Part shown: positions 12,375-52,876 of the stretch, one piece after another
Position numbering within the stretch: the first letter of the stretch is position 1
Layout of the letters: each line of letters opens with the position of its first letter
NCBI RefSeq assembly: GCF_000217715.1
Contig: NC_015666.1
Coordinates: 818,270 to 882,269 of the forward strand
Length of the DNA stretch: 64,000 nt
Direction: 5' to 3'
From: Halopiger xanaduensis SH-6
Lineage (GTDB): Archaea; Halobacteriota; Halobacteria; Halobacteriales; Natrialbaceae
Notes under the pieces: model-generated
Seen by the model: only the letters and a program-made list of their open reading frames with translations
Databases searched by the model: none
What the model was told of the DNA's origin: nothing
Program-made: the position numbers and the translations under genes

Positions 12375-14051
12375 TTAGACCGCGTCCTGTCCGGTCTTTC
12401 CGGTGCGGACCTGGTAGGCGCTCTCGACGGGGATCACGAAGATCTTCCCGTCGCCCGGCTCGCCGGTGTTAGCGGCCTCGCCGATCGCGTCGACGACCTC
12501 GTCGGCCGGGATGTCGGCGACGACGCACTCGATCTTGACCTTCTGGTGGAGGTCGACCGTGTACTCCTCGCCGCGCCACTGGCCCTTCTTGGCGGGCTGG
12601 GAGCCGCGCCCGGAGACGTTGGTGACGGTCAGCGACGGGGCGCCGACTTCGGCGAGGGCCTTCTTGACCTCGCCCAGCTTGTCGGGGCGGATGATCGCGG
12701 TGACCATCTTGATCTCGCCGTCGTTGGGCTTGCCCCCGTCGGCGCGGATGATCTTGTCTTCGTCCGCGCCGCCGTCAGTGCGGAGTTCGCCGCCGTCGGT
12801 CGCGACGTCGACGTCGTGCTGACCGAACTCGGGGTAGGTGTCGACGCCGTGTTCGGAGACGTCGAGGCCGTCGCGTTCGTGTTCGGGTGAGACGCGGGCC
12901 TGACCGGTGAGCTTGAACACGAACCAGATCAGACCGGTCGCGAAGACCGTCCAGACGGTGATGACACCGACGCCGATAGCCTGTGCGATAAACGCGTTCG
13001 GGATGCTCTCGACGACTCCCGGCGCGGCGACGAACGGGAACAGCAGCGTCCCGAGGACCCCGGCCGAGCCGTGGACGGGGAAGACCGCACAGACGTCGTC
13101 GATCTTCAGGTACTGCTCGACGAAGCCGAAGACGAGCGGCAGCTGGATGCCCGCGAGACCGCCGACGACGAACGCGCCCCACCACGCGGTGGTGTCCGGG
13201 ATCGCGGTGATCGCCGCCAGGCCGGCCAGCAGGCCGTTCGCGACGTACAGCGTGTCGACTTTGCCGGTCTTGAGCCAGGCGACGAGGCCGGCGCCCATCG
13301 CGCCGCAGGCCATCGCGACCGTCGTCGTCAGGGCGACGCGACCGAGCTGATCGCCGAGGAACGCGCTCTCGCCGATGATCGCCGAGGTACCGACGTTGAA
13401 GCCGTACCAGCCGAAGGCGAGGATCAGCGTGCCGAGCGCGGCGAAAGTCAGCGAGTGGCCGGGGATGACGTTCGCCGTGCCGTCGCTATTGTATCGGTCC
13501 ATGCGCGGGCCGAGGACCCACGCGGCGGTGAGCCCGGCGATGCCGCCCATGCCGTGGACGATCATCCCGCCCGCGAAGTCGTGGAACACGACGTCGCCGT
13601 ACGCGAGGTGACTGCCGGCCCACGTGAGGCCGGTGACGACCGGGTAGATGACCGCGGCCAGCAGGAAGGTGTACGTGACGTACGCGCGGAGCTTCGCGCG
13701 GCCGGCGACGGCGCCGGAGACGATGGTCGCCGCCGTCATGGCGAAGACGGCGCCGTACAGCCAGTCCATCCAACTCGCGGCGTCGCTCTGGAACTGGAAC
13801 GAGACGCCGTTTCCGGCGACGATCCCTTCGACGGTGGCGCCGATCAGGAAGAACACCGTCACGCCCACCGACCAGGTCAGCAGGTTCTTCGTCAGCTGGT
13901 TCGCGACGTTCTTCGAGCGTACCTGCCCCGCCTCGAGCATGGCGAAGCCGGCGTGCATGAAGAAGATTAGGAACGTGGCGACCAGAATCCACGTGTAGTT
14001 GATCGCCTCGGTCAGCATCTCGACGTCGGTCTGGAGGACGGTCGGTTCCAT
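12375..14051 (-). CDS. Ammonium transporter fused to a PII signalling domain (Amt-GlnK)
   Basis: This 558-residue protein joins two nitrogen-control modules. Residues 1 to about 400 are an Amt channel with 11 membrane segments, the signature [12 protein letters not shown], and the twin pore histidines in VVFHDFAGG and FPVHGSAG. An acidic linker of about 45 residues leads to a complete PII domain (about 445-558) with [14 protein letters not shown], a T-loop carrying [10 protein letters not shown], and [13 protein letters not shown] in the C-loop region. The Tyr equivalent to E. coli Tyr51 is kept; Tyr46 is Trp. PII normally plugs Amt as a separate trimer, so here the plug is tethered. ATG 14051 is used; GTG 14054 is possible. 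Confidence 0.95.
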
Positions 14052-14498
14052 CACTCACGCACCTCCGTCAGTTCCACAGTGCGACCATCTGATTGTAGAC
14101 GAATGTCCATGTCTGAACTGTTCGAGCTCATGGTTGTCTTCTGAATCACGTCTGATGCCGATGGACTAGCTGCATATAAGGATTAGTGTTAACGTTCGTC
14201 GATAAATACTCGGGTAATAGGGACAACCGAACAAATCTAGAGGCAATTTAATGTGTATAAGGGTGTTGAATATCGAGTGTTTTTCGAGCCGTGGTTATAT
14301 ATTCGACGTTCGTCAATCGAAATTAGGTCGGGTTTGTAACGGATTGCCGCCGAAACGACGCCCAAACCGGAACCGTCGGCTCGCGCGCGGCAGATGTTGC
14401 CAGTTGTGCGGTAGGTATGGAACGCCGATGGACGTTCGTCCGAATAGCTCAGAATATCCGTTCGGCTCTACCTCGAGCGGCGGGGATCGCGTCCCAAC
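14052..14498. other. Long leader and promoter region of amt-glnK; no gene seen
   Basis: This 447-bp AT-rich region lies between the amt-glnK start and the hemB stop, both leftward. It holds the amt core promoter (14169-14190, listed separately) and two 11-mers shared with the nitrite reductase upstream region: ATCTGATTGTA (14087-14097) and TCACGTCTGAT (14146-14156). The octamer CGTTCGTC recurs near 14193, 14304 and 14431. An open frame at 14251-14532 has no family resemblance and runs into hemB, so I do not call it. Confidence 0.6.
14169..14190 (-). promoter_or_regulatory. amt-glnK TATA box with abutting nitrogen-type element
   Basis: Read leftward, the sequence is AACACTAATCCTT (the 13-mer AAGGATTAGTGTT at 14178-14190) running directly into TTATATGC, a good archaeal TATA box (14172-14179). 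Transcription should start near 14145-14150, leaving a leader of about 95-100 nt before ATG 14051. The 13-mer differs at one base from the element at 45001-45013 before nitrite reductase, where it also abuts a TTATATG box. This placement would let a bound protein block or recruit TFB/TBP. Confidence 0.55.
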
Positions 14499-40659: not shown

Positions 40660-41114
40660 CCGCGGGTCGGATTCGGGTCTGAGTTCGGTTCGGTCTCGTT
40701 CTTCTTCGCTGCTTTTCCGCGCTTCGTTCGGATCGACCAGCGGCCGCGCCCCGTACGGTCAATGCTGGACTCGATAACCGTGGGATTTGCTCCCGGTTCA
40801 GACACCGTCCGTCCGCCGATTCTCGAGTCGAGATGAATGCTATCATGGATCACGGAATCTCGTGGACGGACGTCCGATCCGGATACACCAACCCGTGATT
40901 TTACGGCCTTATATTGTTCCGAGGTGTTCGTATATTATCGGAAGCTCTTATTCTATGGCCCATTAGTTCGATATTGTAAACGATTATCGTTTAGTAGTTG
41001 TGTATACTCCCGTCTATCCGTGAAACACTGTATGATATTGGGCCAATCTCTCTTGACGAGGGTGGTTTGTAAATCGGCCACTCTCGTTCCCGGGCGCGCC
41101 GGGAGGTGGAACGC
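40660..41114. other. nasA upstream region; no gene seen
   Basis: This 455-bp region after TatCo is AT-rich and carries the nasA promoter. Several AT blocks occur between 40900 and 41040 (TTATATTG, GTATATTATC, GTATGATATT). The 17-bp palindrome at 40976-40992 is listed separately. The SD-like GGGAGGTG at 41101-41108 precedes nasA ATG 41115 and should set that start. No open frame with a family match is present. Confidence 0.6.
40976..40992. promoter_or_regulatory. 17-bp perfect palindrome (candidate nitrogen operator)
   Basis: TAAACGAT-T-ATCGTTTA is a perfect inverted repeat with one central base. Its core AACGATTATCGTT matches 11 of 13 bases of the element at 45001-45013 before nitrite reductase and resembles the element in the amt-glnK promoter. 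TTTAGT immediately follows and could act as a poor TATA box, leading to a leader of about 100 nt. The same relative placement occurs at all three genes. Confidence 0.55.
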
Positions 41115-43268
41115 ATGACCGATCTCGTGCCGACGACGTGCATGCGGTGTGCCGTCGGCTGCGGCCACGTCCAGCGGCCCGTCGAGCAGGGGTACGGACT
41201 CGACGTCGTCCGCGGGGACGCCTCTCATCCGGTCAACAACGGCCTGGCCTGCCAGCGCGGGGTCACCGAGACCGCCGATCCCGACGGCGAGTGGCTGGCC
41301 CGCCCGCTCGTCCGCCGCGACGGCGACCTCGTCCCGACGACCCTCGAGACGGCCTTAGAGCGCGCTGCGGAGGGACTCGAGGGCGCCCTCGACGAGGCTG
41401 GCCCCGAGGGCGTCGCGGTGCTCGGCAGCGGCCAGCAGACCAACGAGGCCGCCTACGCCTTGGGCAAGCTCGCCCGCGGCGGCTTCGGGACGCCGTACTA
41501 CGACGCCAACACGACGCTGTGTATGGCCTCCGCGGTCACGGCCTACTACGACGCCTTCGGCAGCGACGCGCCGCCGCCGACCTACGACGACATTCCCGAG
41601 GCCGAGACGCACCTCGTCTGGGGCGCGAACCCGGCCGCGGCCCACCCGGTCATGTTCCGGTGGATCAACCAGTCCGCCGACGCCGAGGACTCCGAGCTAA
41701 TCGTCGTCGACCCCATCGAGAGCGAGACCGCGGACGTTGCGGACCTGCACGTCCCGCTCGAGCCCGGCGGCGATCTCGCGCTGGCCCGCGCGGTGCTCGC
41801 CCGAGTCGTCGAGACCGGCCGCGTCGACGAGGAGTTCGTCGCCGCGGCGACCGAGGGCTTCGACGACTTGCGCGCCGAGCTCCCGGACGCCGAGGCGGCC
41901 GCCGAGCGCGCCGGCGTCTCGATCGAGGACGTCGACCGCATCGCGGCGGCGCTCGAGGACCCGACCCTGTGCTACTGGGGAATGGGAATCAACCAGAGCG
42001 TCAACGGCACCGCGGCGTCGGGCGCGCTGATCGACCTCTGTCTGGCGACGGGCAACCTCCGCCCGGGCTCGGGACCGTTCTCGCTGACCGGCCAGGCCAA
42101 CTCGATGGGCACCCGCGTCTGCTCCTCGAAGGGGACCTGGCCCGGCCACCGGCCGTTCGACGACCCCGAGCACCGCCGCGCGGTCGCTGACCATTGGAAC
42201 GTCCCCGAACCTCGCCTCCCGGCCGATCCCGGTCCCGGCCCGGTCGGCATCGTCGACGCGATCGGCGACGACGTCGAGGCCGTCTTCGCCGTCGCGACCA
42301 ACCCCGTCGCGGGCATGCCCGACGCGACCCGCGTCCGCGAGCACCTCGAGGACGCCTTCCTCGTCGTCCAGGACGCCTTCCGTTCGGAGACGGCCGAACT
42401 GGCGGACGTCGTCCTGCCGGCGGCGACCTGGGGCGAATCGGCGGGGACGACGACCAACATGGAACGAACCGTCTCCCGCGTCCGCGCCGCGACGGAGACG
42501 CCCTCGGGGATCAAGACCGACCTCGAGCTCATCGGCGCGATCGGCGACCGCGTCGTGCCCGAGCTGTTCGACACGCCGCTCGAGCCCGCCGCGGTCTTCG
42601 ACGAACTCGCCGCCCTGACCGCGGGGACGCCCGCCGACCTCTCGGGGATCAGCTACGATCGGCTCGAGGAGGAAGCGGCAGTTCGCTGGCCCGCACCCGC
42701 ATCCGACGTTTCGGCGGGGTACCGCTACTACGACGGTCCCGACGCGAATGGGGACGACGATGCGGCCGACGCCGACGAGTCGTGGTCGTTCCCCACCGAC
42801 TCCGGTCGAGCGCAGTTCTCGAGCGGACGGGCGCGTCCGCTCCCCGAGTCGACCGACGAAGCCTACCCGCTCACGCTGACGACTGGACGGCGACCGGATG
42901 CGTACAACACCGGTGTCCGTACTCGAGAGGACGAACCGCCGGTCGCCCGCGTCAGCCCCGCGACTGCCGTCGCGCTGGCCGACGAACTCGAGGGCGGCGA
43001 GCGCGTCGACGCTGCGGTTCAGGATGACGACGACGCCCAATACGGCCGCGTCGTCTCCCGTCGCGCCTCGGTCACCGTCCGCGTCGAGACCGACGAGTCG
43101 ATCCCGGACGGCGTGGTCTGGCTGCCGATCCACCACCCGGCGGTCAACGACCTCACGCTACCCGACGTCGACCCGCGCTCGAAGGAGCCCAACTTCAAGC
43201 AGTGCGCGGTGCGCCTCGTGCCGCCGCGCGACCGGGACGCAAGCGCGGTCGCCGAAGTGAGCGCGTAA
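41115..43268 (+). CDS. nasA: Assimilatory nitrate reductase (molybdopterin enzyme)
   Basis: This 717-residue enzyme reduces nitrate to nitrite. The N-terminal [4Fe-4S] motif is C9-x2-C12-x3-C16...C46 (TTCMRCAVGCGH, LACQRGV), the Mo-bis-MGD ligand is Cys136 in NTTLCMASAV, and MGD contacts appear in WGANPAAAHPVMFRW, GPFSLTGQANSMGTR and ATNPVAGMPDATR. The C-terminal MoCo-binding domain has LTLTTGRRPDAYNTGVRTR. No twin-arginine signal is present, so it is cytoplasmic and assimilatory; ferredoxin is the likely donor in haloarchaea. ATG 41115 follows an SD-like GGGAGGTG. It leads nasA-nasB. Confidence 0.95.
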   Translation: MTDLVPTTCMRCAVGCGHVQRPVEQGYGLDVVRGDASHPVNNGLACQRGVTETADPDGEWLARPLVRRDGDLVPTTLETALERAAEGLEGALDEAGPEGVAVLGSGQQTNEAAYALGKLARGGFGTPYYDANTTLCMASAVTAYYDAFGSDAPPPTYDDIPEAETHLVWGANPAAAHPVMFRWINQSADAEDSELIVVDPIESETADVADLHVPLEPGGDLALARAVLARVVETGRVDEEFVAAATEGFDDLRAELPDAEAAAERAGVSIEDVDRIAAALEDPTLCYWGMGINQSVNGTAASGALIDLCLATGNLRPGSGPFSLTGQANSMGTRVCSSKGTWPGHRPFDDPEHRRAVADHWNVPEPRLPADPGPGPVGIVDAIGDDVEAVFAVATNPVAGMPDATRVREHLEDAFLVVQDAFRSETAELADVVLPAATWGESAGTTTNMERTVSRVRAATETPSGIKTDLELIGAIGDRVVPELFDTPLEPAAVFDELAALTAGTPADLSGISYDRLEEEAAVRWPAPASDVSAGYRYYDGPDANGDDDAADADESWSFPTDSGRAQFSSGRARPLPESTDEAYPLTLTTGRRPDAYNTGVRTREDEPPVARVSPATAVALADELEGGERVDAAVQDDDDAQYGRVVSRRASVTVRVETDESIPDGVVWLPIHHPAVNDLTLPDVDPRSKEPNFKQCAVRLVPPRDRDASAVAEVSA

Positions 43269-44670: not shown

Positions 44671-45117
44671 GGGGCTCGGCGCGGCCCCGATCCGGCCGTT
44701 TCGCGTCGTTTCTTTCCGACCGATCGCGGGATTTTTCTTTCCGTTCTGCCCGTTCGGTCACTGCTAGATCGGTGGTGTCGGTTTCTCGCAGCCGTTTCGG
44801 TCCCGAATGGACGTTCCGGCGTTGAGCGATCGTCCGGCGCGGTGATTGGCCGGTTATCGGCTGTTTGAACGCCTCGAGCCGTGCTGTGACTCCGTCGACC
44901 GGACCGGGGGTCGGCTGGTAGAAAACGTCCTTATACAGATCATATCTGATTGTACATCTCACGTCTGATCCTAAAACGCGCCCTATTTTCGGTATTTGTC
45001 AACGATTAGTGTTATATGGTTTAGGTGCATGATGTAGAAACGTGAATTCCGAAATGTTTGGAGTGAAAATCCGCGGATCTACGTCGAATCGTTCGTTCGA
45101 CGATGAGGTGGTCGCCG
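44671..45117. other. nasD upstream region; no gene seen
   Basis: The first half (44671-44930) is GC-rich with no convincing frame. The second half is AT-rich and regulatory: CAGATCATATCTG (44936-44948, an inverted repeat), ATCTGATTGTA (44944-44954), TCACGTCTGAT (44959-44969) and the promoter at 45001-45019. Both 11-mers also occur upstream of amt-glnK in the same order. A leftward frame in this area is Arg/Pro-rich and not coding. Confidence 0.6.
45001..45019 (+). promoter_or_regulatory. nasD promoter: 13-bp nitrogen element abutting TATA box
   Basis: AACGATTAGTGTT (45001-45013) runs into TTATATGG (45012-45019), a strong TATA candidate. The transcript would begin near 45042 with a leader of about 75 nt before ATG 45118. 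One base differs from the amt-glnK element and two from the core of the nasA palindrome. Confidence 0.55.
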
Positions 45118-46887
45118 ATGGTGCATAAGAAAGAGGAACAGAAGGAGGACTGCTACGGCGACGAGGTCCGGGAACACATCGAGGAGTTCGCCGAAAACGG
45201 CGGCTTCGAGGCTATCCCGGACGACGAGGTCGACAAGTGGACCACCCGGTTCAAGTTCTGGGGGGTCTTCCAGCAGCGCTCCGGCCAAGAGGAGTACTTC
45301 ATGATGCGGCTGACCAACGCCAGCGGCATCTTAGAGCCGGGCCAGCTACGCCGCATCGGCGAAGTCGCCCGCGACTACGCGAAGGGCCCCGTCGAAAACC
45401 CCGAGTTCGGCAACGGCTGGATCGACCTCACGACGCGCCAGTCGATCCAACTGCACTGGCTCAAACTCGAGGACATCCCCGAAATCTGGGAGAAACTCGA
45501 GGCTGTCGGCGTCCACTCCCGTTCGGCCGGCGGCGACACGATGCGCAACATCTCGGGCTGTCCGCTCCACGGGAAGGCCGAGGAGTTCGTCGAGTCCGGC
45601 CCGCTGCTCGAGCGCTTCGAGGAGGAACTGCGCGGGGACGACGCCCTCGCGAACATGCCCCGGAAGTTCAACATCAGCGTCTCGGGCTGCCGGGTCGGCT
45701 GCGCGCAGGACTCGATCAACGACATCGGGTTCGAGCCGGCGACCAAGGAGATCGACGGCGAGGAGGTCCGCGGCTTCAACGTCCGCATCGGCGGCGGCCT
45801 CGGCGGCCGCCAGCCCCGCGCCGCGACGCCGCTTGACGTCTTCGTCCGCCCGGAGAACGCCTACGAGGTCGGCCGCGGCTTCGTCGAACTCTACCACGAT
45901 TACGGCAACCGCCAGAACCGCTCGAAGAACCGCGCGCGGTTCTTCGCCGACGACTGGGGAATGGAAAAGATCCGCGAGACGCTCGAGGAGGAGTACGTCG
46001 ACTTCGAACTGCACACTGCGGGCGAGGACTTCCGCGGCGAGTACACCTACAACGCCGGTCGACCCCGCGACGAGGGGCCCCACGACCACGTCGGCGTCGG
46101 CGACCAGAAGGGAGACGGCATGAAGTACGTCGGCCTGAGCGTCCCCATCGGCCGCCTGCCGGCCGAGGACGCCATCGAACTGGCTGATCTGGCCGACGAG
46201 TACGGTTCCGGCGAGATCCGGCTGACCCGTCGCCAGAACCCCGTTATCGTCGACGTCCCTCACGAAGAGGTCGACGACCTGCTCGCGGAGCCGATCCTCG
46301 AGGAGTACCCGCCCGAACCCAGCGCGTTCGAGCGCGGCGCGATGGCCTGTACCGGCACGGAGTTCTGTTCGATCGCGCTGACCGAGACGAAAGCGCGGAT
46401 GGCCCGCATGCTGCGCTGGCTCAACAAGAACGTCGACCTCCCCGACGACGTCGGGAAGATCAAGATGCACTACTCCGGCTGTACGGCCGACTGCGGCCAG
46501 GCGATGACCGCCGACATCGGCCTGCAGGGGATGCGCGCTCGCAAGGACGGCGAGATGGTCGAGGCCTTCGACATCGGCGTCGGCGGCGGCGTCGGCGAGG
46601 AGCCCTCCTTCGTCGACTGGATCCAGCAGCGCATCCCGGCCGACGAGGCGCCCGGCGCGATCCGCAACCTGCTCGAGGCCTACGCGGCCCACCGCAAGGA
46701 GGGTCAGACGTTCCGTCAGTGGGTCGAGGCGACGGGCCAGGAGCAGCTCATCGAGTTCTGCGAACCCGAGGAGACGGACTTCGAGGCGCCGTACATGGAC
46801 GACGCCAAGCAGTCGTGGTACCCCTTCGCCGACAGTCCGTCGGCGGCCGCGGCCCTCGAGGAATCGGCCGCGCCGTCTGACGACTGA
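45118..46887 (+). CDS. nasD: Ferredoxin-dependent nitrite reductase (siroheme)
   Basis: This 589-residue enzyme reduces nitrite to ammonia with six electrons. It has the duplicated nitrite/sulfite reductase layout: a ferrodoxin-like domain, DLTTRQSIQLHWLKLEDIP (about 108-126), the first cysteine-bearing repeat NISVSGCRVGCAQDSINDIG, and the siroheme-[4Fe-4S] ligands C-x5-C in MACTGTEFCSIALTETKARM and C-x3-C in HYSGCTADCGQAMTADIGL. Sulfite reductase is the alternative, but nasA and nasB upstream indicate nitrite. ATG 45118 has GAGGTGG ten bases before it; ATG 45103 is possible. Siroheme comes from cobA. Confidence 0.93.
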   Translation: MVHKKEEQKEDCYGDEVREHIEEFAENGGFEAIPDDEVDKWTTRFKFWGVFQQRSGQEEYFMMRLTNASGILEPGQLRRIGEVARDYAKGPVENPEFGNGWIDLTTRQSIQLHWLKLEDIPEIWEKLEAVGVHSRSAGGDTMRNISGCPLHGKAEEFVESGPLLERFEEELRGDDALANMPRKFNISVSGCRVGCAQDSINDIGFEPATKEIDGEEVRGFNVRIGGGLGGRQPRAATPLDVFVRPENAYEVGRGFVELYHDYGNRQNRSKNRARFFADDWGMEKIRETLEEEYVDFELHTAGEDFRGEYTYNAGRPRDEGPHDHVGVGDQKGDGMKYVGLSVPIGRLPAEDAIELADLADEYGSGEIRLTRRQNPVIVDVPHEEVDDLLAEPILEEYPPEPSAFERGAMACTGTEFCSIALTETKARMARMLRWLNKNVDLPDDVGKIKMHYSGCTADCGQAMTADIGLQGMRARKDGEMVEAFDIGVGGGVGEEPSFVDWIQQRIPADEAPGAIRNLLEAYAAHRKEGQTFRQWVEATGQEQLIEFCEPEETDFEAPYMDDAKQSWYPFADSPSAAAALEESAAPSDD

Positions 46888-52207: not shown

Positions 52208-52307
52208 TCACCCGCGAACGCCGCTGTCGTCCTCACCCGCGAACGCCGCTGTCGTCCTCACCCGCGAACGCCGCTGTCGTCCTCACCCGCGAATGCCGCT
52301 GTCGTCC
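52208..52307. repeat. Four tandem copies of a 25-bp unit
   Basis: The unit (TCACCCGCGAACGCCGCTGT then CGTCC) is repeated at 52208-52232, 52233-52257, 52258-52282 and 52283-52307; the fourth differs by one base (GAATGCC for GAACGCC). The fourth copy is the 3' end of the leftward membrane winged-helix gene, including its stop codon. The other three copies lie downstream of that stop, so the gene's end has been duplicated in tandem. The unit is not a multiple of three. Confidence 0.9.
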
Positions 52308-52876
52308 TCACCCTCGTCGTCCGTCGCCGAACCGGTGCGAAACTGTCCTCGAAGGTATCGCTCGCCCCGTCGCGCCAGGCGATACTTTCCGCGTTCTACC
52401 TTGTCGACGAACCCGTGCGCCTCGAGTTCGATCAGCCGTCGGTTCACTTCCTTTCGGCTGAAGCCGGTGTTGAAGGCCACGACTGACGGCGTGAGAGCGA
52501 GCCCGGTGTCGTGGAACGCGGCGAGTATCTCGTCGTCCATCGGCGTCATCCACTCGGCCGGGCGCCGGACCCGGGACGGCTCGCTCAACAGCACCCGCGC
52601 CCATTCGGTCGTCCGGGTGTCGTTCGTCACGGGATCGTAGAGCCCGAAGACGACGAGCAACGCGGCGATCGCGTGGACCCAGTGGACCAGCGCCGGCGCG
52701 ACCAGTTCGGCGATCGGCCCGGCGATCACGGCCAAGGTTACCCCCGCGACGGTGACGAGCACGAACCGGCGGTAGGCCGCGACGGACGCCTCGAGCGAGA
52801 GGAAGTACAGGAGTTCGAGGGCGACGACGATGCCGATCGCGAGGTTGTAGCCGGCGAAGGGGGTCAGTCCGTCCAC
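52283..52876 (-). CDS. Membrane protein with C-terminal winged helix
   Basis: This 197-residue protein combines membrane helices and a DNA-binding-like domain. Three hydrophobic stretches are at about 8-26, 38-58 and 66-80 (VALELLYFLSL, FVLVTVAGVTLAVIAGPIAE, AIAALLVVFGLYD). Residues about 105-180 form a winged helix: DDEILAAFHDTGLALTPSVVAF, GFSRKEVNRRLIELEAHGFV, ERGKYRLARRGERYL. It could be a membrane-tethered regulator. GTG 52876 overlaps the stop of the upstream gene by 13 bp. The C-terminus ends in the tandem repeat described at 52208. Confidence 0.8.
   Translation of the reverse strand: MDGLTPFAGYNLAIGIVVALELLYFLSLEASVAAYRRFVLVTVAGVTLAVIAGPIAELVAPALVHWVHAIAALLVVFGLYDPVTNDTRTTEWARVLLSEPSRVRRPAEWMTPMDDEILAAFHDTGLALTPSVVAFNTGFSRKEVNRRLIELEAHGFVDKVERGKYRLARRGERYLRGQFRTGSATDDEGEDDSGIRG

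Follow-up and report, generated by a model that had tools for sequence, protein, structure and literature searches.

What is the role of a short element that recurs directly against the TATA box of three nitrogen-assimilation genes in Halopiger xanaduensis SH-6? Is it read by a regulator of its own, or does it belong to the core promoter? Haloarchaea have neither the bacterial NtrBC/sigma-54 system nor the NrpR of methanogens (PMC3831643, PMC6801745), and by what means they control nitrogen assimilation instead is an open question. The stretch analysed here (the window, 64 kb in length) had been annotated in an earlier note with a 13-bp element at the genes for an ammonium transporter, a nitrate reductase and a nitrite reductase, and these three identities agree with the ORF and Pfam domain results. 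The copies are located where they had been reported, i.e., AACGATTAGTGTT at 45001-45013 (nirA), AAGGATTAGTGTT at 14178-14190 (amt-glnK) and AACGATTATCGTT at 40979-40991 (nasA), and each of them abuts a TATA-like hexamer, as had also been described; the 17-bp perfect palindrome TAAACGATTATCGTTTA, given as 40976-40992, is correctly placed at 40977-40993.

Taken by itself, the 13-mer is not beyond chance within the window, where it has 4 matches vs. 1.77 expected (a count of at least 4 was reached in 13 of 100 shuffles). In the whole genome, with 2 mismatches, it finds 126 places vs. 59 for its reversed control, and the bare 13-mer was discarded as a genome scanner, being too unspecific. Its significance comes from conservation and from the larger context. 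As a shared element it is real and conserved, but it accounts for no more than one third of a larger module, namely the third nearest to TATA.

A two-block promoter module at nitrogen-assimilation genes

The orthologues of nirA, amt and nasA were taken from 61 genomes of the family (Natrialbaceae), with minus-strand loci reverse-complemented, and family footprints were derived from the promoters of 26 nirA, 30 amt and 26 nasA orthologues. Common to them is a box of the form TTTGT[AC]AAC-N7-GTT, with CTT in place of GTT at amt, which continues directly as TTATAT or TTTAGT. When the extended pattern GTMAACGMTWANNSTTATAT was searched in the 61 genomes with at most 1 mismatch, all 43 matches fell upstream of amt (28) or nirA (15), with none outside these upstream regions and a single one for the reversed control; when up to 3 mismatches are allowed, its matches in the H. 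xanaduensis genome are nirA (0 mismatches), amt (2) and, with 3 mismatches each, nasA and two further sites. Genome-wide spread and conservation in relatives were the two tests proposed for the element, and in its extended form it is not scattered through the genome and is kept at the orthologous promoters.

The idea that the core may stand in either orientation also held, since in the family-wide profile comparison the amt core fits that of nirA better when inverted (r=0.81, vs. 0.63 direct), while the nirA and nasA cores agree directly (r=0.94). A perfect inverted repeat is not conserved across the sites (self-palindromicity r 0.53-0.76) and occurs only at nasA of the genus Halopiger. The perfect palindrome is a feature of nasA in that genus, AAC-N7-GTT being the general form of the site.

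The second part of the module is a distal block of ~34 bp (CCTTATA...TAT...AGAT), beginning with CCTTATA or CCTAATA, which in the family footprints stands exactly 66 bp upstream of TTTGT at amt, nirA and nasA; between block and box, the alignment of the three promoters gave no evident likeness. At nirA (45118..46887, + strand; Pfam NIR_SIR), the distal block CCTTATACAGATCATATCTGATTGTACATCTCACG occupies 44929..44963 (+) and is followed at the 66-bp distance by the proximal box TTTGTCAACGATTAGTGTTATAT (44995..45017, +), which includes the 13-mer and ends in the hexamer TTATAT (45012..45017, +), near-invariant in 26 relatives. The start of nirA was moved from 45103 to the ATG at 45118 on the basis of relatives with a TGATGG overlap. 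At nasA (41115..43268, +, within a listed ORF of 41106-43268; Pfam Molybdopterin), the block CCTTATATTGTTCCGAGGTGTTCGTATATTATCGG lies at 40907..40941 (+) and the box ATTGTAAACGATTATCGTTTAGT, which holds the palindrome, at 40973..40995 (+). On the minus strand, amt-glnK (12375..14051) combines Ammonium_transp and P-II domains in one ORF and is preceded by the block CCTTATACACATTAAATTGCCTCTAGATTTGTTCG (14228..14262, -), retained in most other haloarchaeal families, and by the box AACGTTAACACTAATCCTTATAT (14174..14196, -), in which the 13-mer is read as the complement and the TATA hexamer takes up 14174-14179 (-). This fused ORF of 559 aa is flanked by hemB-like and hemL-like genes. A function of the distal block as a divergent promoter was ruled out, the upstream neighbours being in tandem at all three genes.

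The order of the module is thus the distal block, the TATA-adjacent box and then a GTG 24 nt after TATA that opens a leader ORF. A composite pattern, CCTWATA-N65-AACRMTWANNSTTWWRT, was run with two mismatches allowed on 391 genomes of the class; as it was built from the three promoter alignments, the independent evidence lies in the absence of other matches and in the relatives. It has exactly three matches in the 4.36-Mb genome of H. xanaduensis, namely amt, nirA and nasA, with zero mismatches each, so that a motif shared upstream of three separate, functionally related transcription units is exclusive to them in this genome. Where gene places were known, 58 of 60 matches were amt, nirA or nasA and the other 2 precede narK orthologues, compared with about eight matches of the reversed control across all 391 genomes. 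On these comparisons, both the existence of the cis-module and its confinement to genes of nitrogen assimilation can be regarded as well supported.

The narK genes were not used to build the pattern, which thereby predicted further members of related function: the composite promoter precedes narK orthologues in G035, G285 and G019 (the match in G285 coming in addition to the 60), and narK-type nitrate transporter genes that lie apart from nasA carry it (L190, L191; G019:C3:124372-124460). In a further case (L189, G399:C23:188210-188298), a separate glnK stands under the same promoter, and the GTG at +1 is the start of glnK itself. The narK and nirA leaders of G019 are alike, with a nirA-like GTGAGTTGTGTTATGTTTGG, and promoter copying is a possible reading of this likeness. 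The earlier opinion, by which these DNA segments would hardly share an ancestor, is for this reason not secure, since in G019 the narK promoter and leader both resemble those of nirA.

How far does the module reach? The composite pattern itself is rare outside Natrialbaceae. The amt promoters of most other haloarchaeal families nonetheless retain CCTTATA 74-75 bp before the TATA hexamer, and most also keep the TATA 24 nt before GTG, a related box and the GTGA ORF. Eight Haloferax nasA loci have the distal block, a AAACGATTAG box and the leader ORF, with a variant spacing of 65 bp; no part of the module is present in a second nasA lineage of Haloferax (L323-L326, L243, L244; identity about 72%). 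In the class-wide comparison, the module was absent from most nasA promoters outside Natrialbaceae, so it is not universal for nitrate reductase.

The predicted transcript start and the leader ORF

At all three promoters a GTG (GTGA in the footprints) follows TATA after 24 nt, and because this is the distance expected for an archaeal transcript start, it is taken as the predicted +1. The nirA leader ORF (45042..45128, +) has 28 codons from this GTG to a stop TAA that overlaps the nirA start at 45118; that of nasA (41020..41118, +) has 32 codons and its stop overlaps the nasA start as ATGA; and that of amt (14051..14149, -), likewise with GTG at the predicted +1, has 32 codons and a TGATG overlap with the amt start. 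Among relatives, all 30 family members keep the amt leader open over 29-37 codons, nearly always without an in-frame stop, and close it at the start of amt or a short way from it, in most of them with TGATG or TGATC; the leader is also present in most other haloarchaeal families. The nirA leader is open to the nirA start in 22 of 26 relatives and the nasA leader in about 15 of 26, the others being cut to 2-3 codons or absent. Over 60 amt sequences from many families, the mean number of stops before the amt start is 0.43, 2.35 and 1.15 in the three frames. The frame that runs open from the predicted +1 to the overlapping main start is accordingly conserved as such, and the family footprints have a GGAGGTG-like sequence before that start.

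Within the leader, the nucleotides GTGATT..GAACAC and RTGRACNNNYGT are conserved with identical codons, the latter motif lying at 14099-14110 (-), i.e., +40 to +51 of the amt leader, with the same codons throughout the class. At position +49-51, nirA has CGT and nasA of H. xanaduensis TGT. Each conserved residue uses one codon (GAC/AAC, CGT/TGT), and the information by codon position is 0.68/0.59/0.58. As the codons are always the same, selection acts on them at the nucleotide level and not on the peptide; the codon data give no support to a classic small protein selected for its sequence. A known structured RNA family was ruled out as well, Rfam giving no family match above the gathering score in the 64-kb window. 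We found no published description of a leader-ORF translation step for amt, nirA or nasA.

A putative nitrogen regulator and its rivals

In the genomes compared, three genes for nitrogen uptake and their orthologues have a common promoter layout that hardly any other gene carries. The probable reason, in our opinion, is that this layout is the switch of a nitrogen regulator, the nitrogen response itself being transferred from Haloferax (PMC3831643, PMC8143581). In Haloferax, nitrogen limitation goes along with high levels of the amtB-glnK transcripts, and an NtrB/NtrC homologue was not found (PMC3831643). We favour, with fair though not full confidence, an element that acts as an operator next to TATA in a small regulon for nitrogen assimilation, comprising amt-glnK, nasA, nirA and also narK where narK has its own promoter; a regulator (probably an activator) would bridge the box and the distal block, and the leader ORF would be translated leaderless, with re-initiation after it. 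Such a sequence-specific regulator, most likely activating when ammonium is scarce, would bind both blocks, and their fixed distance of ~7 helical turns would let it sit on one face of the DNA and aid TFB/TBP and the RNA polymerase, the core promoter being weak by itself. The GTG 24 nt after TATA would be the first codon of the transcript, on which ribosomes would load leaderless to translate the leader ORF of ~25-35 codons, before initiating anew on the main gene, whose start codon overlaps the leader. Contact with both blocks and help to the basal factors are suggested because the ~7-turn distance is invariant and the nearer block touches TATA. Activation is favoured because the nasABC promoter of Haloferax mediterranei lost its activity on nitrate when its TAGAT was changed (PMC8143581). 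We infer the binding protein, activation over repression, the start site, the translation of the leader and the response to nitrogen.

Which protein could be that regulator? The H. xanaduensis genome has eight Lrp/AsnC genes, one of them beside a glutamine-synthetase-like ORF, and the best candidate, albeit a weak one, would be the Lrp/AsnC protein encoded beside glutamine synthetase. A protein from the same setting, Lrp HFX_0246 of H. mediterranei, encoded beside glutamine synthetase, was pulled down with the nasABC promoter (PMC8143581). Against Lrp counts that its levels in that species are unchanged with the nitrogen source (PMC8229911). The ORFs of the window that were tested, from amt to nas and a little past nirA, included no clear transcription factor gene. 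The ORF at 52283-52876 (-), about 5 kb beyond nirA, has a weak HVO_A0261_N match and is possibly a transcription factor.

Could the core promoter account for the box without a separate regulator there? Haloarchaea have several TFB and TBP genes, and the box could be an extended B-recognition element read by one TFB/TBP pair, as its position directly against TATA, its fixed spacing and the fixed orientation of TTTGT would allow. Nevertheless, the distal block 66 bp further upstream, outside the TFB/TBP footprint, is equally conserved, or better so outside the family; the core is invertible at amt, a property that suits a dimeric regulator more than it does TFB; and the box is restricted to three or four genes per genome, all of which makes such a specialisation of the core promoter unlikely. 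If, instead, upstream DNA were a plain strong promoter and control took place at the level of RNA or translation, the start, the leader ORF and the +40 to +51 motif would be the regulatory element. The nucleotide-level conservation of the leader and its motifs and the lack of a known Rfam family in the window agree with this, but box and distal block are gene-specific, unlike those of a plain promoter, and the long leader ORF is lost in many nasA copies, so that we deem control of this kind very improbable.

A further possibility is that a single promoter, leader included, was duplicated in front of several nitrogen genes; the resemblance would then be due in part to descent, and either a shared regulator would preserve it or it would be decaying only slowly. 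The parts are spaced identically at the three genes, the leaders are similar in length, and the narK and nirA leaders of G019 share their nirA-like sequence; yet the intervening sequence is dissimilar while the blocks are fixed, and decay by itself would not spare only the blocks across families. Copying as the explanation has a low probability for us, and it would be compatible with the operator of a regulon, as the two are not exclusive. As for a chance resemblance of AT-rich promoter DNA, the 13-mer is indeed not significant on its own in the window, but the genome scans refute it (43 of 43 and 60 of 60 matches at nitrogen genes, vs. 1 and about 8 for the controls), leaving it with a practically negligible probability.

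The regulon operator that we favour has a practical consequence: because the module is compact and conserved, it shows precisely which DNA can serve as bait and which bases to mutate, and it limits the expected targets to a few genes, making the regulator directly findable. The module is conserved at key genes and, for amt, across most haloarchaeal families, and the leader ORF would add a predicted step of translation at amt, nirA and nasA. A bolder version, which we hold to be doubtful, would see in it a haloarchaeal nitrogen master switch of an undescribed kind, in which one regulator bridges two blocks 7 turns apart and leaderless translation of the leader ORF gates re-initiation, so that transcription and translation would be controlled as a unit.

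Comparison with known systems

The HTH-10 activators Bat and NarO of haloarchaea activate through inverted repeats directly upstream of TATA and control bop and denitrification genes, the NarO motif being CGAAC-N4-GTTCG. Their motifs differ from that of the module, and we know of no distal block for them. The NrpR operators of methanogens (GGAA-N6-TTCC) resemble the module in that they are inverted repeats at glnK-amtB and serve an archaeal nitrogen regulon, while their sequence differs. A published study describes NrpR as lacking conservation among haloarchaea (PMC6801745).

In Haloferax volcanii, a nitrogen-shift motif, AAAGACTAART, has been proposed for Lrp HVO_A0307 (PMC6801745). Like the module, it is rich in AT and belongs to promoters, amt1 and amt2 being among the nitrogen genes at which it was looked for, and a candidate Lrp was named; unlike the module, it is 11 bp long, has another sequence, stands upstream of 492 genes and has no fixed relation to TATA or to a second, distal element (PMC6801745). 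Another is the H. mediterranei nasABC promoter with Lrp HFX_0246, which concerns the same gene, controlled there by nitrogen, with an essential upstream TAGAT and a palindrome (PMC8143581). Disruption of that palindrome had no effect, which would weaken the proposed operator should the palindrome correspond to the proximal box, and the system, as far as described, covers one operon, without a shared element at amt-glnK and nitrite reductase, the composite layout or a leader ORF (PMC8143581). Many nasA and amt promoters of the family have TAGAT near the end of the distal block (many nasA read ...TAGATTG), and the Haloferax species examined have TATAT or CATAT where nasA of the family often has TAGAT. 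The equation of the family TAGAT with the essential one of H. mediterranei, a promoter compared by its published description, is suggestive only.

The predicted fate of the leader ORF has its counterpart in H. volcanii, in which termination-reinitiation takes place at TGATG/ATGA overlaps and the downstream start is preceded by GGAGGTG, a sequence resembling a Shine-Dalgarno motif; haloarchaea reportedly use such sequences for re-initiation at overlapping genes and not for de novo initiation (PMC6728339). The overlap and the GGAGGTG-like sequence are alike in both cases, but there they join two ordinary genes, whereas here the upstream partner would be a leader ORF that begins at the predicted transcript start (PMC6728339).
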